Positions 1-55,926 of a stretch of 62,322 bases of DNA are shown one piece after another. Each line of letters opens with the position of its first letter. The stretch's first letter is position 1. The notes under the pieces are model-generated. The model saw only the letters and a program-made list of their open reading frames with translations, had not been told where the DNA came from and made no database searches. Made by a program: the position numbers and the translations under genes. The stretch is from Oscillospiraceae bacterium (GTDB lineage Bacteria > Bacillota > Clostridia > Oscillospirales > CAG-272): assembly GCA_015064745.1 (NCBI GenBank), contig SVRR01000008.1, forward strand, positions 1 to 62,322. Reading direction: 5' to 3'.

Positions 1-37
1 AGGGCTAGGCGTAAGGGAGCGAGGGCGCTGACGGTGT

Positions 38-147
38 AGTTCCCTACTCCGAAGCGCCTGAATCGACCGACAACGACGCCATGTGCGATTTGTGCGAGCG
101 CCGCGCGAAGCAGAAATCGCGCAAGACCAGGCACTCGCGAGGGAACT
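38..147. repeat. Imperfect terminal-inverted-repeat element
   Basis: AGTTCCCT at 38-45 is the exact reverse complement of AGGGAACT at 140-147, and the complementarity continues imperfectly inward for about 20 bases. Inside, a GCGATTT/AAATCGC pair encloses a GC-rich hairpin. The interval has no convincing coding frame; an ATG on the minus strand opens a frame to the window edge but reads as low-complexity Arg/Ser-rich sequence. It looks like a small palindromic or MITE-like repeat. With one copy in view this stays an inference. Confidence 0.45.
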
Positions 148-162
148 GTATAACATACGCTC

Positions 163-282
163 CTTCCTAAAACATAGTCGAAATGCGCGCAGATCGTAGA
201 TCTGCTTCATTCCTCCTTGTTTTAGTTACACACTTCGTGAAAACGATTATTAATCGTTTTCACTCGTTCACCAAGCGAGTAA
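163..282. repeat. Structured intergenic repeat, copy A
   Basis: This block is clearly similar to 5176-5285. Shared segments include ACATaGTCGAAATGCGCGCA, TGCTTCATT and GTTACAC-CTTCG. It can form three hairpins: an outer CTAAAAC (167-173) with GTTTTAG (219-225), an inner GCAGATC (189-195) with GATCTGC (199-205), and GAAAACGATT (239-248) with AATCGTTTTC (252-261). Relative to copy B, every stem differs by paired changes that keep base pairing. It lies directly downstream of infB with no gene in it. No T-run terminator for infB is evident here. Confidence 0.75.
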
Positions 283-311
283 CGAAGTATTGCGCGATTT
301 ATGCGAGCGAG

Positions 312-2786
312 TTATCTTTCGACCTCTTCCATCGTATACACTTCAAGTATATCGCCGACCTTCAAATCGGAATATCTTTCCAGTGTAATACCGCACTCAT
401 AGCCCTCGGCAACCTCGCGGACGGAATCCTTGAAGCGCTGAAGCGAGCCGATGCGGTTGTTATATTGCTCACCCTCGGCAAGCGGCTCTGCCTTGCGGTC
501 GAAGATGACGATACCGTCACGAACGACACGGACGAGAGACTGTCTCGTTACCTTACCGTCAAGGACGTAACAGCCGGCGATATTCATGCCGATACGGGCA
601 ATGTGAATGACCTCACGAACCTCAACACGACCTTGCATGGTCTCCTTGTAATTGGGAGCAAGCATGCCCTTCATAGCTGCTTCGATCTCCTCAATACACT
701 CGTAAATGACACGGTAGGTGCGGATATCGACACCGTTTCTCTCGGCGGAATCGGACGCGCCCTTATCCGGACGGACGTTAAATCCAACGATGATGGCGTT
801 AGAAGCGTTGGCAAGCATGACGTCGCCCTCGTTGATCGCGCCGACACCGGCATGGATAACATTGACGCGCACCTCATCGGTGGACAGCTTTACAAGGTTC
901 GCCTTGACAGCCTCCGCAGAGCCGGCAACGTCTGCCTTCACGATGATATCAAGCTTTTTGAGACCCTCTGCCATCTGTGCAAAGAGGTCGTCAAGATTGG
1001 CGTTCGCACGGCTACCTGCCGCCTCTGCCTTTGCCTTTTCACGGCGTTGCTCCGCCAAAGAGCGTGCCATCTTTTCATCCTCAACAGCGTTAAACTCGTC
1101 ACCCGCCGAGGGAACCTCGGCAAGACCGATGATCTCAACGGGAACGGAGGGACCTGCCTTCTTGATGGTCTTACCGGCATCGTTCACCATAGCACGGACA
1201 CGACCCACGGCGGTGCCTGCGATAACGATATCACCGACCGCAAGCGTACCTTTCTGTACAAGAACGGTCGCGACGGGTCCTCTACCCTTATCCAGACGCG
1301 ACTCGATGATAAGACCTGCGGCACGGCGGTTGGGGTTGGCGCGAAGCTCCTTTACCTCCGCCACAAGAAGGACGTTTTCAAGCAAGTCATCAATGCCAAA
1401 GCCTGTCTTTGCGGAGACAGGAACACAGATCACGTCACCGCCCCATTCCTCGGGAACAAGGTCATACTTGGTGAGCTCTTGCTTGATCTGGTCGGGATTT
1501 GCCTCGGGCTTATCCATTTTATTAATGGCAACGATGATATCAATCCCCGCCGCCTTGGCGTGGTTGATCGCCTCAATGGTCTGGGGCATGATGCCATCGT
1601 CTGCAGCGACAACGAGAATGGCAATATCGGTTGCCATCGCGCCTCTTGCGCGCATTGCGGTGAACGCCTCGTGACCGGGGGTATCAAGGAAGGTGATCTC
1701 CTTACCGCCTACCTCCGCACGGTACGCACCGATGTGCTGGGTAATACCGCCTGCCTCGCCTTGCGTGACGTGGGCGTGACGAATATAGTCGAGAAGCGAG
1801 GTCTTACCGTGGTCAACGTGACCCATGACGCACACGACGGGTGCGCGTTCGATGAGATCCTCTGCCGCATCCTCCGATTCATCGAACAGACGCTCCTCAA
1901 TGGTGACGACGACCTCCTTCGTTACCTTAATGCCCATTTCGTCACAAAGCAGGAAGGCGGTATCGTAATCAACGGTTTGGTTGACGGACGCCATAACGCC
2001 CATCATCATAAGCTTTTTGATGACCTCTGCGGAGGTCTTCTTCATGCGGCTGGCAAGCTCGCCCACCGAGATCTCGTCGGGAAGCGTGATCTCCAACTGC
2101 TTTTTGCGCGCCGCCTCTGCTTCCAGTCTCTTTTGACGCTCTTTTTCCAGGCGCTCACGCTCTTTGCCCTTATCACGCGCACCCTTGGTGCCGGGGCCGG
2201 GCTGGTTGTTTTGCTTTTTCAGCTTCTGCTTGCCCGCATCGCCGCCCTTGCCGTAGGAGGCATAACGGTCGTTGTGGGTGTCATCGTATTTCGAAAGGTC
2301 GACGGCAGCGGTACGGGTATCTACCACGCGGCTCTTCGTCTTGACAATGACGGTCTCGCCCTGTCCCTGTGCCGTGGGCGTTACGCTGCCGAGATCGATG
2401 GTCTTGAGCGTCTGCTTCTGCGGCTTCTTTTCGGGTGCCTTGGGAGCAGGCTTCTCCGCAGGCTTTTCCGCAGGCTTCTCCGCGGTTTTTTCCACGGGTT
2501 TTTGCACCGGCTTCTCCGCGGGCTTCTCCGCGGGCTTCTCCGCAGGCTTTTCTGCGGGCTTCTCCACGGGCTTTTCCACGGGAGCATCGCTCACGATGGT
2601 TGCCTTACCGTCAAGATATTCCTCTAAATTTTCAATTTGATTTTCTAAAGTGAGGCTTTGTAATACGATCTCAAAATCCTCGGACTCTAAGTCCCCCTTT
2701 ATTCCGAACCCTGCCAGCAGAGCCTCGAAATCCTTTTTCTTCATTCCAAGATCGCTCATTACTTGTGCTCGTTTGATTTTCGGCAT
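312..2786 (-). CDS. infB: Translation initiation factor IF-2
   Basis: GTPase that delivers fMet-tRNA to the 30S subunit and promotes subunit joining. The 824 residues hold an N-terminal IF2 helical subdomain (about 1-67), a low-complexity linker of EKPA/EKPV tetrapeptides (about 68-115), a basic charged stretch, then the G domain from about residue 320 with [16 protein letters not shown] and NKMDKPEAN, followed by IF2 domains II to IV. Length is normal for the family. It is the last visible gene of the rimP-nusA-ylxR-ylxQ-infB operon and starts five bases after the ylxQ stop. rbfA, often next, is not present in the 311 bases downstream. Confidence 0.98.
2440..2590 (-). repeat. 12-bp-period coding repeat in infB linker
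   Basis: Tandem units of about 12 bases (GAGAAGCCCGCG-like on the minus strand) encode roughly a dozen xEKP tetrapeptides, E-K-P-A or E-K-P-V. The number of units probably varies between strains through slippage. The array lies between the N-terminal subdomain and the G domain, where IF-2 linkers are usually disordered and variable in length. Confidence 0.85.
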
Positions 2787-2791
2787 ACTGC

Positions 2792-3175
2792 TTACCCATC
2801 ATCTTCGGTTGCCGAAGATGCCTTTCCTATGACGTATAATTTCCGCAATTCCCGTGCAAAGCTCTCATCGGTAACCGCTACGGCGGCGAGAGCACAGGAT
2901 TTCCCCACTGCGCGCGCAAGCCTTTCGGTATCGGCGGCGACGGTGAGAAGCGGGACACGGTAAAACCGACATTTGTCGGTAATTCTTTTGGCGGTTGCCG
3001 CGCTTGCCCCTTCGGAAAGCAGGACAAGACAGGGCGGTTTACGCTTTGCCAAGGCTTCACATACAAGCGGGGTGCCATGAACCGTTTTTCCTGCACGGCG
3101 GCAGAGCCCTAAGAAGGTCAAAAACCTTTCGGTTTCCTCCTTCACCGTTTTATTCGGCAGATTCTGTTCTTGCAA
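2792..3175 (-). CDS. ylxQ: L7Ae-family RNA-binding protein YlxQ
   Basis: A 127-residue protein of the ribosomal L7Ae/L30e/YlxQ family, thought to bind kink-turn RNA. The core [16 protein letters not shown] and the later [18 protein letters not shown] match the family pattern. A TTG start at 3175 is chosen because it has a strong GGAGG six bases upstream. That start lies inside the end of ylxR, giving a 26-base overlap and likely translational coupling. The position between ylxR and infB is the standard Firmicutes arrangement. Its exact cellular role is not settled. Confidence 0.9.
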
Positions 3176-3440
3176 GCTTTTCCTCCAAGCGAAGGTAGAC
3201 CTCTTCCTCTATCTTTGAGGAAAACGCCGCCTCCAGTCGTTTTGTTTTCTTGGCTTTTTGCAGACAAGCTGTATTCTTGCAGAGATATGCACCTCTGCCG
3301 GGAGCACGCCCCGTCACGTCAAGGGAAAACATCCCCTCGGGAGAACGTACAACGCGGATCAGCTCCGCCTTGGCGAAATGCTCCCCGCATCCAACGCAAC
3401 GGCGGGTGGGTATTTTTCTTACCTTAGGTTGGTTTGCCAT
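3150..3440 (-). CDS. ylxR: YlxR (DUF448) nucleic-acid-binding protein
   Basis: Small basic protein of 96 residues in the DUF448/YlxR family. It shows the hallmark RKIPTRRCVGCGEHFAKAEL near the N-terminus and the GRGAYLCKNTACLQKA motif, a conserved Cys-containing fold. The ATG at 3440 is preferred over an upstream in-frame start because AAAGGAG sits eight bases before it. It lies 24 bases downstream of nusA and overlaps the start of ylxQ. YlxR has been described as nucleic-acid-binding and nucleoid- or RNase P-related in other Firmicutes; nothing here refines that. Confidence 0.93.
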   Translation of the reverse strand: MANQPKVRKIPTRRCVGCGEHFAKAELIRVVRSPEGMFSLDVTGRAPGRGAYLCKNTACLQKAKKTKRLEAAFSSKIEEEVYLRLEEKLARTESAE

Positions 3441-3464
3441 GCAAAAACTCCTTTTTTCAAACAA

Positions 3465-4490
3465 TTATGCCTTGATATCGATCTTACAGCCTGTCAGCTT
3501 TGCGGCAAGCTTTGCGTTCTGTCCCTCTCTGCCGATGGCAAGAGAGAGCTGATCCTGCGCGACCTTCACCTGGCAGTTGCGCTCCTCGGTTACCGTAACG
3601 GAAAGAACCGTTGCGGGCGAAAGCGCCGCCTTTACGTAGGTTGCAAGGTCCTCGTCGTAGCGGATGATATCGATCTTTTCATTGCCAAGCTCGGCAAGAA
3701 CGTTCGCAAGACGCATACGGCGATTACCAATGCAAGCGCCGACGGGATCCACGTCCTCATCGGTAGAATACACCGACATTTTGGTGCGTGAGCCCGCGTC
3801 ACGCGAGATGTTCTTAATTACAACGGTGCCATCCTGAATTTCGGGCACCTCAAGCTCAAAGAGACGGCGCACAAGCCCCGGATGGGTGCGGGAAAGGGTT
3901 ACGAGAGGACCGCGATTTTCACCGCCGTGCACCTCGCTGATAAACACCTTCAAGCGATCACCGACAGCGAAATTATCGTCGGAAAGCTGCTCGGCACGAG
4001 GAAGAACGGCTCTGCCGTTGCCCGTATCGAGAACGAGACTGCCGTCCGTATCATCCACCTTGTAAACGACAGCGGTAATGACCTCGCCCTTCTTTTCCTC
4101 GTAGGCGCGCGCTTGGTTTGCGCGCTCTGCCTCTCTTATGATCTGAATGATCTGCTGTCTGCCCGCCTGTGCGGCAAGACGGCTGAACTTATCGGTCTTG
4201 ACCTCAGTCTCTACCACACCGCCAAGCTTGTGACGGCGGCTCAGCGCCTTTGCGTCGGCAAGCGAGATCTCGGTATCGGGATCGGTAACCTCCGAAACGA
4301 CCGTTCTGACGTGATACAGCTTCATTTCCTTCTTATCGGGGTTAACGTGCAAGCGAACGTTTGCCTCGCTTCCGTTTTGCTTTTTGTAGGCACCTGCAAG
4401 AGCCGTCTCAAGCTTTTCGAGCATGTACTCCATTTTGATGCCCTTTTCCTTTTCGAGAAGCATAAGCGCTTCAAAGAATTCCTTATTCAT
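3465..4490 (-). CDS. nusA: Transcription termination/antitermination factor NusA
   Basis: RNA polymerase-binding factor that modulates pausing, termination and antitermination. The 341 residues contain the N-terminal polymerase-binding domain (about 1-125), an S1 domain (about 135-200, GEVITAVVYKVDDTDG) and two KH domains, the second with LAIGREGQNAKLAAKLTG. There is no C-terminal acidic repeat, as usual in Firmicutes. One oddity is that the KH1 loop reads GACIGNRRMR where a GxxG such as GQKG is expected, so the second glycine is replaced by arginine. The start has AAAGGA just upstream. Second gene of the operon. Confidence 0.97.
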   Translation of the reverse strand: MNKEFFEALMLLEKEKGIKMEYMLEKLETALAGAYKKQNGSEANVRLHVNPDKKEMKLYHVRTVVSEVTDPDTEISLADAKALSRRHKLGGVVETEVKTDKFSRLAAQAGRQQIIQIIREAERANQARAYEEKKGEVITAVVYKVDDTDGSLVLDTGNGRAVLPRAEQLSDDNFAVGDRLKVFISEVHGGENRGPLVTLSRTHPGLVRRLFELEVPEIQDGTVVIKNISRDAGSRTKMSVYSTDEDVDPVGACIGNRRMRLANVLAELGNEKIDIIRYDEDLATYVKAALSPATVLSVTVTEERNCQVKVAQDQLSLAIGREGQNAKLAAKLTGCKIDIKA

Positions 4491-4510
4491 GACAAATCCT
4501 TTCTATGAGA

Positions 4511-4978
4511 TCAATCTTCAAAATATACGGTGCGGATGTGGGAAATATCTCGGCGCGCGAAGAGGTGCTCCGCGTCGTCGGGGGTAACGACGGTAACGGT
4601 GTCTGCGTTGTATGCGGCAAGCGCACCGACAAGGGTCTTTGCGCCGTTCTGTGCCGCGAAGAAGCGAAGCTCCACCACAAGCCCGATACAAGCTTCAAGG
4701 TGTGCGTCGGTGCGAAGCTCTCTTTCGATCCCGGGCGAGGAGACTTCAAGGCGATAAGCGTTCTCGATGGGATCCGCCTCATCGAGAATGGGGTCGATGG
4801 CACGGTGGACGGTTTCGCAATCGGTGATGGAGATGCCCTCCTCGGAATCGATGGTGATCTCCAAATGGTACTCCGTGCCTATTTTGGCGTACGAAACGTC
4901 CCAAAGCATGTAGCCGAGCTCCTCTATCTTAGGACGCAAAAGCTCCTCTACGACAGAGGCAATATTCTTTTTTGCCAT
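4511..4978 (-). CDS. rimP: Ribosome maturation factor RimP
   Basis: The 155-residue protein matches RimP, which assists late 30S subunit assembly. The pattern DVSYAKIGTEYHLEITID, then the SITDCETVHRAIDPILDE stretch and YRLEVSSPGIERELR, is diagnostic. It has a clean AAGGAG six bases before the ATG. It is the first gene of the operon; a promoter lies at 5066-5093 and a leader hairpin at 5010-5040. The nusA start follows 20 bases after its stop. Confidence 0.95.
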   Translation of the reverse strand: MAKKNIASVVEELLRPKIEELGYMLWDVSYAKIGTEYHLEITIDSEEGISITDCETVHRAIDPILDEADPIENAYRLEVSSPGIERELRTDAHLEACIGLVVELRFFAAQNGAKTLVGALAAYNADTVTVVTPDDAEHLFARRDISHIRTVYFED

Positions 4979-5009
4979 AAGCCACTCCTTTTCTAAGTTT
5001 CACAAGAAG

Positions 5010-5040
5010 AAAAGAGTGAGGCTTCCTTTCTCACTCTTTC
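5010..5040 (-). promoter_or_regulatory. Leader hairpin, possible attenuator, before rimP
   Basis: On the minus strand GAAAGAGTGAG pairs with CTCACTCTTTTC around a short loop. The 3' arm continues into TTTTCTTCTT, giving a terminator-like hairpin inside the rimP leader, about 20 bases after the predicted transcription start and 32 bases before the ATG. The operon encodes NusA, which acts on such hairpins, so attenuation or autoregulation is plausible but is inference. Confidence 0.5.
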
Positions 5041-5065
5041 CTTCTATTCTTTTATCTTCCTATTT

Positions 5066-5093
5066 ATTATACCACACTTTTTGAAAAATGCAA
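5066..5093 (-). promoter_or_regulatory. Sigma-A promoter of the rimP-infB operon
   Basis: Minus-strand -35 TTGCAT (5088-5093) and perfect -10 TATAAT (5066-5071), spacer 16. It would start transcription about 80 bases before rimP. Confidence 0.75.
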
Positions 5094-5143
5094 GGGGTTT
5101 CGCGAAATTTCTTTCATCTTTTATTTATGGGAGGTATATAAGA

Positions 5144-5298
5144 GGACTCCCTCAGTCATCTGCCTTGACAGCGCTCTTCCTGAAACATGGTCGAAATGCG
5201 CGCAAATCACAGATTTGCTTCATTTTTCCCTGTTTCAGTTACACGCTTCGCGCAAACGGTTGTCACCGTTTGCACTCGCTTACCTCAATGAGGGAGCC
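5144..5298. repeat. Structured intergenic repeat, copy B, with flanking inverted repeats
   Basis: The core resembles 163-282. Hairpins are CTGAAAC (5180-5186) with GTTTCAG (5232-5238), GCAAATC (5202-5208) with GATTTGC (5212-5218), and GCAAACGGT (5252-5260) with ACCGTTTGC (5265-5273). The whole is bounded by GGACTCCCTCA (5144-5154) and TGAGGGAGCC (5289-5298), which are near-perfect inverted repeats, so this copy looks like a complete MITE-like element. It sits between the divergent-side promoter of rimP and the 3' end of the giant secreted protein gene. Confidence 0.75.
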
Positions 5299-5308
5299 TT
5301 ACGAAAAT

Positions 5309-5336
5309 GCGCCCCGACGCATTGGCGTCGGGGCGC
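5309..5336 (-). terminator. Hairpin terminator of the giant beta-helix gene
   Basis: GCGCCCCGACGC and GCGTCGGGGCGC form a 12-bp stem with a 4-base loop, 17 bases after the stop at 5353 on the minus strand. It is followed by ATTTTCG, a weak T-tract. Confidence 0.75.
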
Positions 5337-5352
5337 GGGGGTAACAGAGAGA

Positions 5353-8300
5353 TTAATAGTTGTTGTCTGCGATGTCGTAGGGATCTGCCTTCGCCCATTC
5401 GCAGCCTGCCTCAAAGATGATGTTTTCCGCATCAATAGGCAATCTTGCGGGGTCCTTTACGTAGGTCATGTTCCGAACGTAGTGGAAGCGCACTGCATCA
5501 ATACCATTGCGGAATGCCTCAAAGTGCTGCGATCCCGATTTGGTTCCGACAGTCAACTCCGAGCGTGTATTGATCAGATAGCAATCACGATACGTGATAT
5601 TGTAGGAAAACGCAGATGTATTAGTCTGCTCAAAGTATGCCCAGCAGCTGTTGTGGTCTTTTCTCAAGCGCTCAACATACTCTTCCATCGTGAACTCGGT
5701 ATCAATGTTCTCGAATCTGTCCTCCGTCATGGTCTCCACCGCGGTTTGGTTTCTGTTGCCGTACGCTCCGCCGGGACCGGAAGCGCCAAAGGAACGGGCA
5801 ACAACAACGGTGTTCCAGTTCTCCCAGTTCGAAGAAGAACCGTCATAGTACTGCGCCGCGTGGAAGCGTCCCTGACCGTCACCCGTCTTATTCGTGAAGA
5901 CGAGATAGTTGTCGTGCGTCCAGTTGAAGAGGGTGTGCTCTTCCTTCGACGCGTTACCGCCAAGCGTGTAGATATGACCGCCGTCACCCGTCTGCTGCAT
6001 GACGCTCTCGATGTAGTTGTGGTGGATATCCACGTGCATCAGCCTGACACTCTCACCGTACATGAAGGCAGCCGCACTCCAGCTCCAACCAACCGAATAG
6101 CCCGAATAGGAGGTGTTTCTGATGGTGTTGTAGGAGAGGTCAATGTCCTTCGCGTACTGAACCGTGACCGCAGGAGAGGAGTAGATCTTCACCGCGATGC
6201 GGTCAAAATAGTTGTTGGTAATGGTGCTGTTTTCGGTACCCTCGGTCTTGCTCCAAACAGCGACCGCGGCCGAGCCACCGCCGAAACGGATAGCGCCGGA
6301 GCCAATGTCCGTAAAGCTGGAATCCTTAACGGTGGTGTTTTCAACACGGTTACGGAAGCTGATGCCCTCGCAGGGGAGATCGTGGAAGTTACAGCCGACG
6401 ACATCAAAGCCGCGGATCATCTTACCGTAGACGGGCGCACCGGAGGGGAAGGTATCCGTCTCGCCTACTGCATTGACGTGCGGGTCAGAGCTTGCCTGAC
6501 CACCGCCAAAGCCCTGTCGGCTAATGACGTCATAGTCAAGTCCCGTGAATGCCATGTCCTTTAACGTTACGTTCTTAATGTTGGTGAAATAGAGCATGTT
6601 ATTCATGGTCGGATACTCGAACTTCACGCCGTCAACACCGCTTTCGCTGTAATAGTACAGCGTACCGGTCTCTGCGTTGTAGTAATACTCACCGTTTCTA
6701 TCGAGATAAGCATGGCTCATTTGCAGGGTGACCATACGGTTGTAGAAGTGTTTCTCGTCATGGATTGAGAAGCCCTCGTAATGCGCGGGATCGAAGTAGA
6801 TAGCCACGTGCGTCTTGCCATCTGCCGTAACGATCTTATCGTCGTAGTCTACGCCGATGACCTGACCGACGTTGTAGGTCCACTCACTGGGGAATGCAAG
6901 CTCAAGTCCGCTTCCCTCCAAGGTGTAATTCTCTTCATACTCATCGGAGAGATAGCGTTCGGCAAGCTTCATCTGCGCAAGATAGGACGCATATTCCGTT
7001 TCGAGGGCTGTAAGAAGGTTCTTACGGGTCGTGTTATAGGTGGCTGCCTCAGCCGCCTTGCCTTCTGCAAGCAGATCCTCGTAGGTCTTCTGCGCCTCGG
7101 CAAAGAGGTTGTACGCCGCTTGATACTTCGCCGTAGCATCACTCTTGATCTTTGCGGCAGTGGAAGCAAGCTTTGCGTATCCCTGCTCAATTGCGAACGA
7201 CTGGTTGCCTACAATATCCATGACGAAATACGCCTTGTACTGCTCCATCGAGGGAACGAAGGGAACCTTACCTTCATAAGGTGCGTCTTCTTCCTTTACA
7301 GCAGGCAAATACGCGCTGTAATCGCCAAAATTCTCAAGCGTTCCGCTTGCAACGATCTGTGCGTTGCGGATCTCGTTCAGTACGGTCACATAGCCTGCGG
7401 GAGCATTCTCGTAGGTCGTTTCGTACACGGCGATGGGTGCCTTGTTGTAGGTGGTGACGGCGCCGTTTTCATCGCGGTTGGCAGCATCATCGGTCGCTTC
7501 GGTCAACTCGGCAACCGCCAGCTTCTCATAGAGGAACTGATAGAAGAGTGCCTTATACTGCTCGCTACCGTTTTCCGTAGCAGGTGCCGCATCCAGTTTG
7601 AGCTTATCCTCCGTGAGCGCATTCACCTCATCAAGCGCGAGATATGCATCTCTGTAATAGATGAACTGAAGCTCTTGCGCCAAGCCCGTATAGGCAGCGT
7701 CAGGAAGACTGGTGTGCGTCAGCTCACCTGCCTCGTGCAGTGCAGTTACCTCTGCAAAAACACCGGTAGAGGGAAGATCCTCAAACACGTAGCCTTCGTC
7801 TTCTATTTGAGTATTCGTCGGATACGCGGGCTCCACAAGCTTGTAAGCCGCAGTAGCCAGCGTAATATTCGCCGCAGTGGATTCCTTTACCTCGCTTGAA
7901 ATGCTTGCGAACACCGCAAGATATTCCTCACAAAGCTGTTTCGCATTTGCCTTGGTCTCCTTGCACTTTGCGTCAGCCTTTGCAAGGTTCGCCTTGGCTA
8001 CCTCGTATTGAGGAGTGCCCTCGGCATAGAGGCCTGCGATCCTATCGAAGGTTGCCTTCGCCGCATCATAAATGCTATCCGCCTTCTCTACGATCGTTTC
8101 CTCGGTGTATATGCTCGTGTAGGAGGAAAGCTTTTCTTTGAAGGTTGCCATGCTTTCGCCGCAAGTCTCGGAATTATAGAAGGCTGTCAGCTCAGATACG
8201 ATCACCTTGGTGAAGACAAGCTCCTTGAAGCGCGCGTAGTAGAAGGGCGACGCATTCTCCGCCGTGCTGTAAGATGCCGGGGAAGCTTCGTTTCCAAGAT

Positions 8301-11300
8301 CGAATACGTCGTAATAAGCCAAATACAAGTCACGATAATACGCGAACTGAGTATTCAGTTCTACCTTTTCCTCTGCATAGAAGAGCGTATCGTGCTTCAA
8401 GGTGCCTGCGTTATACATGTTGAGCGCATTCTTCCAAGGACCGACCTCCCAACGGTAGAAGGCAGTCATGTAACGCGGCTCGTTCGCAATGTAGAAGCTA
8501 TTCGCACCGTTACGCGCGATATCGGCGATAGAGCCGTTTACGTAGAGATAACGGAAGAAGGGATACTCACCGTTTGCATCTGCCTCAAACTGATATGCCC
8601 AAATGTTGCCATCAGACTTCACAAAGCCGCTATTATCCAGCGTTTTCGTCGAGGTCAAGGTGCTCTTTCCGTTCTCGGACGTGATAAGAAGACGACAGAA
8701 TTCATAAAGGATTTCCGAGCCGTCAATACTAAGAAGCTCGTGAAGCTCATACATACCGTCCGCCGCCAAGATGGTGACGTAGGTCGGTACGTTCACCAGC
8801 GGAAGCTTGGTCTTTGCCACAGCAAAGGCACTCGCGAAGCTGTTGAAGGGCGCGTCCTTAGAACCGTTTCCGCCCGCCGGAGCAGCCGCATTTAAATAAA
8901 TGTAATCTCTTTCGTAGCACTTCTCGGTAGCATTTACCAAATGGTCGGTAAGCGCGGTGTCTTCGAGAACCGTATCATTCTTCTGCATGTGGTTGTACAC
9001 GCCGAAGAAGGAGTTCGGGGAGTAATTATCCCCCGTCGGCTCAATGTAGAAGATCATCTCCTTGCCTTCCTTGCTCACGAGACGAACGAAACCGAGAACG
9101 TTGATCTCGGACATCATCGCCGTCTTATTCGCGCTTCCCGCTTGCACGGTAAGAGCAAAGGTGTTGCTGTCTGTAAAGAAGCCGGTATTTCTGCCCGCGA
9201 CGCCATCATATGCCACGATCTTGTAATCGTAGTTGCGACCGTCTAAGGAAGGTGCCGCGTTCTGTCCGATGTTTGCGATAGCACCGATCTCAATGGTAAA
9301 GCCCGCGTGAACCATTGCGGTAGCGTTACCCTCGTCAAGGTCAAAGTAGTAACGCAAGCCGTCCGTACGGTCGTTACGGATACCAATGCCGGCAAATCCG
9401 AGCCAAAGCGCGGAAAGACGGGCGTCAAAGATCTCCTGTGCCTGTTCCTTCGGCAGATTGAAGCCAAGCTCCGAAAGACCGCGGTAAACGACCGTGGGAT
9501 CTTCCTCAAAGTAAGGAAGCACCTGATCCAAAAGATCGGTATTAAGATCATAGAAGTAAATGATGTCCGCCGCGTGGTTCTGGATCTTTTCCGCCTCGGT
9601 AAGCATTCTGTCGTACACACGAATGGCGAAGACGCCGCAAGGCATACCGACCATGAACTGGAACGCGTTGTTGGCAGCGTCGTTGGTGATAAGCTTATCC
9701 GCCTCCACTCTAAGGGAGAGCTGCTTTTGCAGGTCGCTGTAAATCACGTACTGACCGCGACCAAGGACCTCATCCACCTCATAATCAATGTTATAGGTAA
9801 TGATATCGTTGATGCCCGTCTTCTTCCAAGCGGTCTCGGTACCGATTTGGTTACGTTTGCCCGGCGACACGTACCAGCATCTGTTGCCATAGTCGTAGCA
9901 CCAGCGGTTTTCAAGTCCCGCACGCTGACCACCGCCGTCGTGTGCCGAGGGGAAGATCAGACAACGGAGCGGACCGATCATGATACCGTTCTCGTAGTGG
10001 ATACCGTAGGTAGAGGTGGAGTCGATGTGACGGGTATAGCTACCGTCCTCGTTCACGTCCACCAAACCCACGGGGTTTACGACCAGTTCGACAGTGTACT
10101 CGTAATCGGGAAGCATGTCGGCAGTCAGATAAATACCGAACTGACGGTCTGCTACCGTCTGCATCTTGGAGTAGTCCTTAATGAGATAGTAACCGCCGTT
10201 CTCTGCGCTCGAGCGACGCACCCACTCGGCGCCTCTCAGGGAGACCTGCTCACCCGTCTTTGCGGCGTTGAACCAAGAAAATCCGCCGCTGCCGGTAGTC
10301 AGCGCACCCGTGTCAAAGCCCGTATAGGCAGTAGTCAAGACACGCAAGCCGTCGGTAACGTAGAGGGCGTCCTCAGCCGTCTTTTGATTGGCGTAAAGAT
10401 CAACGATCCCTTGAAAGGATGCGTTAAACTCCTCGGCATTGGAAGAGAAGCCGAGAGGAACGATGGCGTTTTCAATAAGCACCTTGGTCTCGTCGTCGAG
10501 CGCGTTATACTTGCTCAAATCCGCCTTCACGTATGCCGCCATGTCGACGAACGCGTTATGCTCCATTTCTCTCGCGGTCAAAACGGCAGTGTAAATACGA
10601 AGCGCGTAGAAGTCGGTAGGAAGGGAGGATGAAAGGTAGAAGTTACCCGTGTCATCCTTATCGTAATAGTGCGTGCCGTTAACCCCGTTTGCGGTAGAAA
10701 GTATCGGGGAGGTGTAGTAAGGTGTAGCACCACGCAGCATACCGTAGACTGCCGTTACGGTGCGCGCGTCATTTTCACCTACGGTCAAGGTTTCGTCACG
10801 CGTAAAGACGTAGGTATTTACCTTGCCGTACTCGCGAATGCCCGATGCCCACGTAGAGTTGTTGCCGAGCTTTTTATCGCTCCAAGCATGAGTATTGTTG
10901 TAGTCTTTGTCGCTCAGCTTCCAAGTAACGTCTCCGCGCACAGGCGAGCCGTTGCTGTGCACACCGTCACGCGACGGCGACGTCGAGGAAATAAAGCCGA
11001 TGTAGTCAAAGGGTCTCGTGTACTCAGCAGCGGAAATACCATTGTTACCGTTCGCGACGTAATACTCAATGGGGTTGCCCGCATCGTCCTTAGCGATCTC
11101 ACCGTCGGGGGTTGCGACGTAGATAGGATTGTACTTCGCCACGTACTCGATGGTAAAGTCTTCCTTGGGAAGAAGGGCAAGACCGAGCTGCAAGCGCGTG
11201 TTCGCAAAGCTCGGATCGTTTAAGCCGCCAAGTTTTTTGCCATTCTCTTCAGCATACGAGTTATAAATGTGCGACAAGATGTTATCGGTCGGTAGCTTCT

Positions 11301-12714
11301 TGTCATAGGTGCTGTTTACCAGCTTGCCGTCCACCCACTGACCGTAGAGACCGGTGAAACCGATACTGCCGTCAGCTCTCTTTTCCCATACGGAGCTATT
11401 GTTAAACTTTGCGTGGTTGAGACCGAGCTTGTTGACCCAGGTACCGTCCCAATCCTCAGCCTCGGTATCGATGAGCTCCGTGCTTCCGAAGAGAGCAACG
11501 AGCTTACCGCCGTTTGCGGTGGTCTCGCCGTTCGCGCCGACGTACATCTTCTCGTAGTCGTTCAGGTCTCTCGCGCTTTCGAGCAGCTTTTCTTCTTCTA
11601 CGAGCTTCTGAATGGCATTCTCATAGTCTTCCTTCGTAGCGTCGGCGCCAAGCGCGGGAGCCGTCTCGGTGAAGAATCTCTCAACAAGTCCCTTATACGC
11701 CGTCATTGCGTTGAAGACGTCGAGGTCCACGTCAAGACGGAGAAGCGTATCCACGATGCTGTTGGCAGCAGCATCCGCCGCGCTCAGCACGTCCTTCACG
11801 GAATCGCTGGCATACATGCGAAGGGCGTAGACCACGCCCTGGTCGTTCTTCAAAATGTGAAGACCGCTATCACCGAAATCGGCTTTCATCGCGTTGCTTG
11901 CGCTCGTGGAGACGATATCACCGTGCGTTACGGTGTACTTCGACTCCTCGCCGCTCACGGTTTTCTTCACGAACTCCTTGCGCACGATCAAAGGGGTGAC
12001 CTTACCGTTGTAGTTCACAAAGCTTGACGCAGAGGAAGTCCCGGTGACGTTGATATCAGCGACACCTTTCGTCGTGGACTTCAAGGTCCAAAGAACGGCG
12101 CCCTTGCCGTCATTTTCATCCTCGTGCTGCAAATTGCTCCAGTGCGTTGCCTTTACGGGACCGAAGAGGAAGGCGTCGTCTACAAGCCCGCCCTTTTCGG
12201 CAGCGTCGCGCAGATCCACGCGGACGACCGTCTCGACCGCCCAGTTGGCATAGCGCTGATTCACCGCACCGTCGTTGTATTGAAGCAAGGTTTGGGTATT
12301 GAACGAAATCTGATTCGCGGTAGCCGTAAAGTCGGGATCGGCATAACCGATACCGCTTGCGTACGACTGCCAGCCCGTAGCGTTCGTGTCAGCATCATAG
12401 GCTCCGCCCTTGATCTCGGCGTAGATCGTCTCGCTCTTCTCGAATTGCTTCGTTTCAGCGTTGTAGACTCTCGCGTACCACTTGCCGTTTACAAGGTCAA
12501 CGGTACCGTTCGTCGGATCAAAAGCGTCAAAGAACGCGATCAGCCCATCGGTCTTGTACAGCGAATAATAGTCGCTGATGGGCTTGGTAGCGCTCGTCTC
12601 GCTTCTCGGGACATCCCCATCACCCGTTTCGGCGGCTGCACCTACTGCCATGGTGGGTACCATGGTAACGAGCATCGCCAAGAGCAACAGGAGGCTAAGA
12701 ACTCTCTTTTTCAT
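5353..12714 (-). CDS. Giant secreted beta-helix protein, GH141-like
   Basis: This 2,453-residue protein has a clear signal peptide (MKKRVLSLLLLLAMLVTM, then an AVGA-A cleavage region). Residues about 50-1100 contain three LamG/ConA-like segments, each ending in an ALRxY or AIRVY strand and a short helical tail (near 292, 703 and 1026). From about 1270 a right-handed beta-helix family begins (NGSKDAPFNSFASAF, RYLYVNGSIADIARNG). It is interrupted by about 490 mostly helical residues (about 1425-1918) and resumes with LDRNGEYYYNAETGTLYYY and a parallel beta-helix (about 2040-2330). This order resembles GH141-type fucosidase/xylanase or related enzymes, so a glycan-degrading role is inferred. No sortase signal, SLH or dockerin is seen at the C-terminus. 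AAGGAG lies nine bases before the ATG. The gene is monocistronic, beside a sugar kinase and permease. Confidence 0.8.
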   Translation of the reverse strand: MKKRVLSLLLLLAMLVTMVPTMAVGAAAETGDGDVPRSETSATKPISDYYSLYKTDGLIAFFDAFDPTNGTVDLVNGKWYARVYNAETKQFEKSETIYAEIKGGAYDADTNATGWQSYASGIGYADPDFTATANQISFNTQTLLQYNDGAVNQRYANWAVETVVRVDLRDAAEKGGLVDDAFLFGPVKATHWSNLQHEDENDGKGAVLWTLKSTTKGVADINVTGTSSASSFVNYNGKVTPLIVRKEFVKKTVSGEESKYTVTHGDIVSTSASNAMKADFGDSGLHILKNDQGVVYALRMYASDSVKDVLSAADAAANSIVDTLLRLDVDLDVFNAMTAYKGLVERFFTETAPALGADATKEDYENAIQKLVEEEKLLESARDLNDYEKMYVGANGETTANGGKLVALFGSTELIDTEAEDWDGTWVNKLGLNHAKFNNSSVWEKRADGSIGFTGLYGQWVDGKLVNSTYDKKLPTDNILSHIYNSYAEENGKKLGGLNDPSFANTRLQLGLALLPKEDFTIEYVAKYNPIYVATPDGEIAKDDAGNPIEYYVANGNNGISAAEYTRPFDYIGFISSTSPSRDGVHSNGSPVRGDVTWKLSDKDYNNTHAWSDKKLGNNSTWASGIREYGKVNTYVFTRDETLTVGENDARTVTAVYGMLRGATPYYTSPILSTANGVNGTHYYDKDDTGNFYLSSSLPTDFYALRIYTAVLTAREMEHNAFVDMAAYVKADLSKYNALDDETKVLIENAIVPLGFSSNAEEFNASFQGIVDLYANQKTAEDALYVTDGLRVLTTAYTGFDTGALTTGSGGFSWFNAAKTGEQVSLRGAEWVRRSSAENGGYYLIKDYSKMQTVADRQFGIYLTADMLPDYEYTVELVVNPVGLVDVNEDGSYTRHIDSTSTYGIHYENGIMIGPLRCLIFPSAHDGGGQRAGLENRWCYDYGNRCWYVSPGKRNQIGTETAWKKTGINDIITYNIDYEVDEVLGRGQYVIYSDLQKQLSLRVEADKLITNDAANNAFQFMVGMPCGVFAIRVYDRMLTEAEKIQNHAADIIYFYDLNTDLLDQVLPYFEEDPTVVYRGLSELGFNLPKEQAQEIFDARLSALWLGFAGIGIRNDRTDGLRYYFDLDEGNATAMVHAGFTIEIGAIANIGQNAAPSLDGRNYDYKIVAYDGVAGRNTGFFTDSNTFALTVQAGSANKTAMMSEINVLGFVRLVSKEGKEMIFYIEPTGDNYSPNSFFGVYNHMQKNDTVLEDTALTDHLVNATEKCYERDYIYLNAAAPAGGNGSKDAPFNSFASAFAVAKTKLPLVNVPTYVTILAADGMYELHELLSIDGSEILYEFCRLLITSENGKSTLTSTKTLDNSGFVKSDGNIWAYQFEADANGEYPFFRYLYVNGSIADIARNGANSFYIANEPRYMTAFYRWEVGPWKNALNMYNAGTLKHDTLFYAEEKVELNTQFAYYRDLYLAYYDVFDLGNEASPASYSTAENASPFYYARFKELVFTKVIVSELTAFYNSETCGESMATFKEKLSSYTSIYTEETIVEKADSIYDAAKATFDRIAGLYAEGTPQYEVAKANLAKADAKCKETKANAKQLCEEYLAVFASISSEVKESTAANITLATAAYKLVEPAYPTNTQIEDEGYVFEDLPSTGVFAEVTALHEAGELTHTSLPDAAYTGLAQELQFIYYRDAYLALDEVNALTEDKLKLDAAPATENGSEQYKALFYQFLYEKLAVAELTEATDDAANRDENGAVTTYNKAPIAVYETTYENAPAGYVTVLNEIRNAQIVASGTLENFGDYSAYLPAVKEEDAPYEGKVPFVPSMEQYKAYFVMDIVGNQSFAIEQGYAKLASTAAKIKSDATAKYQAAYNLFAEAQKTYEDLLAEGKAAEAATYNTTRKNLLTALETEYASYLAQMKLAERYLSDEYEENYTLEGSGLELAFPSEWTYNVGQVIGVDYDDKIVTADGKTHVAIYFDPAHYEGFSIHDEKHFYNRMVTLQMSHAYLDRNGEYYYNAETGTLYYYSESGVDGVKFEYPTMNNMLYFTNIKNVTLKDMAFTGLDYDVISRQGFGGGQASSDPHVNAVGETDTFPSGAPVYGKMIRGFDVVGCNFHDLPCEGISFRNRVENTTVKDSSFTDIGSGAIRFGGGSAAVAVWSKTEGTENSTITNNYFDRIAVKIYSSPAVTVQYAKDIDLSYNTIRNTSYSGYSVGWSWSAAAFMYGESVRLMHVDIHHNYIESVMQQTGDGGHIYTLGGNASKEEHTLFNWTHDNYLVFTNKTGDGQGRFHAAQYYDGSSSNWENWNTVVVARSFGASGPGGAYGNRNQTAVETMTEDRFENIDTEFTMEEYVERLRKDHNSCWAYFEQTNTSAFSYNITYRDCYLINTRSELTVGTKSGSQHFEAFRNGIDAVRFHYVRNMTYVKDPARLPIDAENIIFEAGCEWAKADPYDIADNNY

Positions 12715-39724: not shown

Positions 39725-39870
39725 AAAAGTCAACCTCGTTGAGGTCGTCGGAAGGACTTGCGGTGTCCGACCGAGGCGTAGAGGTCTTTGGAGAATCCCG
39801 CGATGAACGGGTGCCGAAGGTGCAAGGCGAATTCGCCGAATCTCTCAGGCAAAAGGACAAAGGAAGCTTT
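39725..39870 (+). promoter_or_regulatory. Glycine riboswitch, single aptamer
   Basis: The conserved glycine-aptamer core is present: CTTTGGAGAATCCCG at 39786, GTGCCGAAGGTGCAAG at 39811, and CTCTCAGGCAAAAGGACAAA at 39842, with P1 formed by CTTTG (39786-39790) and CAAAG (39858-39862). Only one core is found. The 60 bases before it hold two hairpins (ACCTC/GAGGT and GTCGGA/TCCGAC) and no second core, so this may be a singlet with a partial 'ghost' partner. It precedes a terminator and an AGCS symporter, a known target of this riboswitch class. Confidence 0.93.
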
Positions 39871-55739: not shown

Positions 55740-55918
55740 ACGGGGCAAGGAAACATTGATAGCTCTCCGCAAAAGCGACAATCCGACAGATCTTATTCTC
55801 TCGGACCAGCGCGAAGACACGCCTGTCCCCGCCTTCGGCATCCGCCCCTTTCCACCGACAACGGTTCGCGTGACCTATTCCGTCGGGTTACTCTTGGCAA
55901 AATGCGCCTCTACCGTAT
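55740..55918 (-). promoter_or_regulatory. Lysine riboswitch (L-box)
   Basis: The minus strand shows the class's conserved elements in order: GGTAGAGGCGCATTTTG, CAAGAGTAA, GGAAAGGGGCGGATGCCGAAGG, and near the 3' end TTGTCGCTTTTGCGGAGAGC-TATC. P1 pairs GGTAG near the 5' end with CTATC (55758-55762). It is followed by a terminator and then dapA, so lysine represses its own synthesis. A small GCCCCG/CGGGGC-type hairpin lies between aptamer and terminator. Confidence 0.92.
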
Positions 55919-55926
55919 GTATTTTT

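Follow-up and report, generated by a model that had tools for sequence, protein, structure and literature searches.

A dispersed family of structured intergenic repeats with covarying stems around the rimP-infB operon of an Oscillospiraceae bacterium

REP and BIME elements are hairpins at the ends of bacterial transcription units, with stems that are kept through covarying changes, and the 178-bp repeats of the Escherichia coli tyrT locus (rtT) form tandem units each containing a piece of a tRNA end. Folded DNA is also recombined at the attC sites of integrons, which act as a folded single strand with conserved unpaired bases and carry the boxes RYYYAAC and GTTRRRY. Here we analyze an element, called E hereafter, two copies of which lie near both ends of the rimP-infB operon in a stretch of 62,322 nucleotides from an Oscillospiraceae bacterium (contig SVRR01000008.1 of assembly GCA_015064745.1, forward strand), the whole of which is called the window. 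Two further groups of systems invite comparison: the small mobile repeats of bacteria, which two accounts present as short, intergenic, multicopy and gene-free (PMC2229807, PMC2759123), and the tRNA islands, which have the whole gene on one side and a fragment on the other according to the description of Islander (PMC4383910). The copies of E form a family of structured repeats that is dispersed and has covarying stems; that E is the conserved core of a small nonautonomous mobile repeat family recognized as folded DNA is a proposal to which we give even odds, that is, a probability of about 0.5.

Dispersal, folding and covariation of E

The window corresponds to contig C5 of a draft genome of 1.70 Mb in 41 contigs (G000). 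A BLAST search of this genome with one copy (copy A) returned 13 places, including the query itself and partial matches, while a covariance model built from 26 copies of E gave 17 matches, and 16 each in two other E-rich genomes, G004 and G019. At least one model match is found in 54 of the 69 genomes of the genus, the own genome counted; across the order, 11 of 295 genomes drawn from it match, representing 7 of 148 genera and two families besides that of the window, with two of the 11 belonging to the window's genus. A strict pattern retrieved 11 stretches from the collection of named genomes, all of them metagenome-assembled genomes (MAGs) titled Clostridia or Oscillospiraceae bacterium, the hosts being water buffalo, roe deer and dairy cattle where the titles give one. 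Since many of the listed model matches sit near contig starts, as judged by eye, these copy numbers are probably too low. The original prediction, made from the letters of the window, had considered a new structured repeat family possible, and the covariance search of the own genome and its relatives turned this possibility into many more copies of a dispersed structured family. Variants of the layout occur as well: tandem P1/P2 units without P3 end in a final unit with P3 (stems as defined below) at locus L050 (142-427) and on contig C19 of G000 (4557-4817), with periods of 86 and 109.

Copy A has a core of 110 nucleotides at positions 163-272 of the + strand (positions 1-110 of model R1, 120.9 bits), about 40 nucleotides past the 3' end of infB. 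Its outer stem P1 (167-174 with 218-225) encloses an internal loop, ATAGTC facing CTCCTT, and the hairpin P2, the inner arms of which lie at 189-195 and 199-205; the hairpin P3 pairs 237-248 with 252-263. Copy B, upstream of the operon, has a core of 109 nucleotides at 5176-5284, also on the + strand (113.7 bits), in which P1 (5180-5187 with 5231-5238) likewise encloses P2 (5202-5208 with 5212-5218) and P3 pairs 5252-5260 with 5265-5273. Folded as RNA of the + strand, copy A reaches -35.7 kcal/mol (z -6.28) and copy B -37.2 kcal/mol (z -5.48), values equaled by 0 of 200 dinucleotide shuffles in either case. Both copies are present where they had been predicted and their three stem pairs read as first written, the stems running longer than was then seen; the family model finds no third place in the window at expectation values up to 0.01.

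The predicted pairs change in a concerted way across the family. A MAFFT alignment of the 26 copies, computed with no structure input, shows, for 19 of the 31 predicted pairs, one or more copies in which both partners differ, whereas the alignment of 73 distinct copies to the model does so for 30 of 31, the former figure being the more cautious because the latter alignment leans to the structure. Among the 2087 cells of the 73 copies 94.2% are paired, compared with 74% after shuffling, and the covariation score of 0.474 exceeds a shuffled mean of 0.150 (0 of 500 as high) and the values obtained with slid partners (at most 0.075). The covariation seen earlier between two copies therefore holds in many and is not due to chance; the step from compensatory change to selected folding, which had been presented as strong evidence, has to be qualified, since template switching can also keep inverted repeats matched and so weakens covariation as proof of selection. 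Each letter of the loop word ATAGTC, and five of the six letters of CTCCTT, are conserved in at least 90% of the 73 rows, which argues that at least this part of E is under selection within the genus. The 3' end of the element is constant, ending mostly in ACC.

Whether folding matters in RNA or in single-stranded DNA had been left undecided. In the stems of E, G-U combinations number 44 and A-C combinations 34 among the 2087 cells (G-U 2.1%), while in the tRNA stems at these loci 83 of the 940 marked pairs are G-U (8.8%), a control without an A-C figure because the ARAGORN brackets mark standard pairs only. As G-U hardly exceeds A-C, the pairing looks DNA-like, or made by a process that writes perfect complements, and the balance leans to DNA.

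Copy B sits within a larger composite at 5144-5298 (+ strand), bounded by the inverted repeats GGACTCCCTCA (5144-5154) and TGAGGGAGCC (5289-5298). Window positions 5146-5299 are 91% identical to C19:7191-7345, and contig C19 has the composite as well, in two copies complete at both ends and a third in which only the left end is present. Such inverted repeats were not seen at copy A nor at the other printed copies; hence the ends that had suggested a MITE (miniature inverted-repeat transposable element) or an ERIC-type element are real around copy B, but belong only to this copy and its C19 kin, not to E in general. A strict pattern search for an empty copy of the CTCCCTCA composite gave no match.

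The neighbors of the two copies are infB, encoding IF-2 (312-2786, - strand), which adjoins copy A, and rimP, the first gene of the operon (4511-4978, - strand), which adjoins copy B; the stretch between the copies holds infB, an L7Ae-family gene, a YlxR gene, nusA and rimP. On its other side copy B is adjoined by an open frame of 2453 amino acids with a signal-like start (5353-12714, minus strand). Elsewhere in the window there are a glycine riboswitch (39778-39870, + strand) and a lysine riboswitch (55752-55920, - strand).

Junctions with gene ends and an empty site

Outside the window, E frequently abuts a copy of neighboring sequence. The set examined comprised 99 copies from chosen loci, not every match being included; the genus search and the named collection supplied 85 of them and the search of the order 14. 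A direct repeat (score at least 14) of the bases to the right of E lies within 1.5 kb in 48 of the 99, and 34 of these 48 repeats begin no more than 3 nucleotides from the 3' end of E, 63 offsets having been tried. A tighter test, restricted to 94 copies after dropping five at contig edges, asked for a score of at least 12, a start within 3 nucleotides of the end of E and a partner within 400 nucleotides: 38 of 94 copies have such a repeat versus 5 of 282 control points placed in these loci. Copies sharing a gene are not independent observations in this count, and array partners may be other E units. The repeated pieces are mostly gene ends, chiefly of tRNA genes, rpsI or rplQ, as read from tRNA calls and by eye. 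From tRNA genes they comprise 3' parts of tRNA-Leu and tRNA-Lys and 5' parts of tRNA-Ser and tRNA-Pro; the rpsI piece at locus L066 is identical in 69 of 69 bases, and the piece at L090 comes from a gene after an rpoA-like frame that reads as rplQ. At four tRNA-Ser loci (L148, L149, L151, L152) the bases directly left of E also come from that gene, so that E interrupts a partial second copy of it.

The boundaries of the partner copies are C-rich. Seven contexts formed by the ends of further E units, and one row that had been misread, were set aside; in the 22 distinct contexts counted, C occupies the second letter before the boundary 20 times, the last letter before it 15 times and the first letter beyond it 13 times. 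Within tRNA genes, the boundaries fall by eye in the T arm, in the anticodon loop or between the D and anticodon stems. Where the repeat begins at the end of E, the spacer from gene to E measures 18-252 nucleotides, and at L058, L149 and L154 tandem units of about 205-230 bp are found. The strand of E relative to the gene varies, with E downstream of tRNA-Leu and upstream and antisense at tRNA-Ser and tRNA-Pro, and several species carry E at the same ends of tRNA and ribosomal-protein genes. The sequence after the rpsI fragment is common to the unit-bearing locus L118 and the unit-free loci L134 and L138. A simple long target duplication, with one segment on either side of E, was rejected for rpsI at L066 and L118, where the sequences diverge after 69 identical bases.

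The end of rpsI harbors other repeats, too. At L123, L127, L129 and L130, other small hairpin elements terminate, as E does, beside a direct copy of the last 15-18 bases of rpsI, some of these copies being mismatched, so that several families use one insertion spot. A second repeat family after rpsI (L126, L132, L138, L142-L145, L147) consists, by eye, of hairpin arrays with the spacer words AATGAAGC, ATGAAATC or AACTATGA, which begin where an inverted rpsI 3'-end copy stops.

The empty site that the original prediction had proposed to look for is readable upstream of rimP in G019, the closest relative found by both proteins (RimP 90% and the end of InfB 96% identical). Positions 5129-5299 of the window (+ strand) are missing there, about 6 other bases lying between flanks that match the terminator of the neighboring gene and the rimP promoter region; the MAFFT gap is poorly placed at this site and the edges were read by eye. 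This stretch is a lineage-specific insertion. Downstream of infB neither G019 nor G004 has E, in a stretch that does not align. Among 30 rimP and 30 infB loci, fetched from 60 and 59 genomes with a match and some of them ending soon after the gene, a strong E match occurs only at the window's own loci; the other matches are one of 23.5 bits in L226, about 1.1 kb from the infB match, and a partial reverse one inside copy A. When 52 copies drawn from five genomes are placed on a tree, those found at the tRNA-Pro(TGG) site in three species, G000, G024 and G004, lie apart (the tRNA being called in G000 and G024, and the site in G004 recognized by a fragment and the neighboring genes), and that of G000 groups with rplQ-type copies of the same genome. 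To judge from such sequence relationships, this suggests repeated arrival at fixed sites, or replacement within them.

Competing explanations and the search for a mover

These data pose a question: Is the fold of E kept by selection, or are its arms kept alike by the way in which DNA is copied? The E family offers a countable natural test of whether strong stem covariation always means selection on the fold. Template switching between inverted arms, by which one arm is copied onto the other, could yield hairpins as well as inverted and direct copies of gene ends by mutation and not by selection on a fold; two reports describe how such switching can create and repair hairpins (PMC8794818) and how replication errors yield small direct-inverted-direct, that is, inverted triplications (PMC13334657). 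The near absence of a G-U surplus over A-C agrees with this explanation, as does the variation of the loop words outside the genus. It also fits the terminator and spacer hairpins beside E at tRNA-Leu(GAG), which differ by eye in both arms between L085 and L091, the direct-inverted-direct arrangements that stand above shuffle level at L085 and L032 (and are seen by eye at L026, L007 and L091), and the inverted copies of the rpsI end (score at least 10) found after rpsI in 10 of 30 loci, a count without shuffle control. Yet it leaves unexplained how one family came to be dispersed, and why ATAGTC opposite CTCCTT is imperfectly paired but conserved in the 73 rows; we regard it as possible but doubtful. 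That E is a structured RNA, either a small regulatory RNA or a 3'-end element with covariation due to selection on RNA, would be in keeping with strong covariation and conserved loop words, the usual mark of RNA, and with the many copies downstream of transcribed genes; however, the low share of G-U relative to tRNA stems, the occurrence of E on either strand relative to its gene and the lack of an Rfam family at the window copies make this very unlikely.

Another explanation takes its model from islands moved by tyrosine integrases: E would be the end of a mini genomic island of tRNA type, whose incoming piece restores the split target and leaves the displaced fragment beside E. Whole gene, spacer, E and gene fragment is indeed the layout behind most of the 38 of 94 copies, the same signature appears in the Islander description cited above, and both the boundaries in tRNA genes and the common sequence after the rpsI fragment accord with it. 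Against it, a spacer of 18-252 nucleotides has no room for an integrase gene, target sequences differ from locus to locus, and only a single tyrosine-recombinase match was obtained in either of the E-rich genomes G004 and G019; this explanation is unlikely. A version without its own integrase, which we hold to be quite unlikely, has mini-islands of about 130-360 bp, gene-free and with the folded-DNA end E as attachment site, that integrate at C-rich steps in the ends of tRNA and ribosomal-protein genes, restore the split gene, stack in tandem and depend for their movement on a resident recombinase acting in trans, for which the first candidate would be the single tyrosine recombinase found in each of G004 and G019.

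Recognition as folded DNA, the explanation that we favor, starts from what is observed: dispersal, structure, the empty site at rimP and the exact junction with copies of neighboring sequence. E would present a long imperfect P1/P2 hairpin with an internal loop, followed by P3 and the constant 3' end, and the folded strand would be bound by some recombinase or transposase. Strongly transcribed genes would receive insertions near their ends, at C-rich and often CC steps, and the insertion, or its survivors, would bring a tandem copy of the gene end by which the gene stays whole. Copy B, which by eye lies upstream of the apparent rimP-infB promoter, would have moved as part of the larger composite with GGACTCCCTCA and TGAGGGAGCC ends. 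Which enzyme and which strand take part, and whether insertion or duplication came first, are matters that we infer. Readings of TATAGT as promoter-like and of AAGGAG on the other strand as ribosome-site-like, made by eye only, were set aside.

Various findings weigh against this proposal. Outside the genus, ATAGTC is exact in only 7 of 15 copies and CTCCTT in 4 of 15, and the alignment of 73 copies was fitted to the very structure under test. In the tighter test 56 of 94 copies have no adjacent repeat, and the window copies both lack the gene-end junction, with best repeat scores of 13 at offset 18 for copy A and 10 for copy B. The rimP empty site shows no clean target-site duplication, about 6 bases being replaced between edges read by eye. 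Copies cluster only weakly by genome: on about 110 columns the tree has 23 changes, where shuffling gives a mean of 28 and a value this low in 18 of 1000 cases. The MAGs are incomplete, and reverse transcriptase and IS110 are unmatched in the three E-rich drafts (G000, G004 and G019, 75-93% complete), the searches not extending to serine recombinases or other transposases.

The enzyme searches yielded no mover. Among 11 genomes, reverse transcriptase matches only in G077 and IS110 in none, while a Y1 transposase (PF01797) exceeds the cut-off in one, G004, with no match in G000 or G019; as none of the three is common to the three E-rich genomes, they were rejected as movers. Phage-integrase-type matches occur in all 12 genus genomes examined (12/12), with one each in G004 and G019, which we take as candidate Xer-like proteins from their length only. 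On contig C23 of G000 (1-2900, L101) tRNA-Pro(TGG) stands between E and two tandem phage-type integrase genes, the latter at its 3' side; because of this position, and because G004, equally rich in E, has only one such match, elsewhere, these genes were discarded as movers. A second question posed by E is how gene-free short DNA can settle in tRNA and ribosomal-protein genes without breaking them. With exact junctions, and with sister species that do not have identical sets of copies, a direct search for the enzyme behind this would be feasible.

E among known repeats and islands

No Rfam family reaches its threshold at either window copy, and a permissive Rfam search of positions 1-5400 gave six matches, the best with an expectation value of 0.39 and none over a core. 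One strict gapped pattern scanned against IMG/VR found no match to E, nor did searches of phage and plasmid collections in distant mode. The titles and abstracts searched contain no description of the E family, in a coverage that mostly excludes subscription journals.

Since E lacks at least one tested defining feature of each existing class, we file it as a variant of the small mobile repeats and not within any of these classes. It resembles MITE, ERIC, RUP and RU-1/2/3 elements in being about 100-200 bp long, intergenic, multicopy and without its own gene, and in the inverted ends of copy B; like a short, dispersed and insertional MITE, it is multicopy, and the two window copies are absent from the orthologous places of the closest relative. 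In contrast to MITE-type elements, E has no general terminal inverted repeats, visible target duplication or parent transposase so far found, and it combines two separate hairpin domains with an internal loop. Compared with REP and BIME elements, E has three stems over 110 nucleotides and lies beside copies of gene ends, and no RAYT-type Y1 transposase matches in G000 or G019, which are incomplete drafts. The attC site of integrons was rejected as a model for E, which has no RYYYAAC or GTTRRRY boxes in its conserved columns, these reading ATAGTCG and CTCCTT, integron integrases not having been searched by name.

The two systems connected with tRNA genes come close in other respects. As in rtT, the arrays of 205-230 bp units at L058, L154 and L149 carry pieces of tRNA ends, but E arrays are also found 5' of tRNA genes and at protein genes, and the window copies have no Rfam match. 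With tRNA-targeted islands E has in common flanks made of a whole gene and a fragment, and boundaries at the T arm and anticodon of tRNAs; a whole target gene with a displaced fragment accompanies 38 of 94 copies, though not the window copies, and not all 38 fragments come from tRNA genes, some partners being other array units. E differs from these islands in that it is far smaller and without an integrase, occurs also at rpsI and rplQ, and stays at the junction itself.

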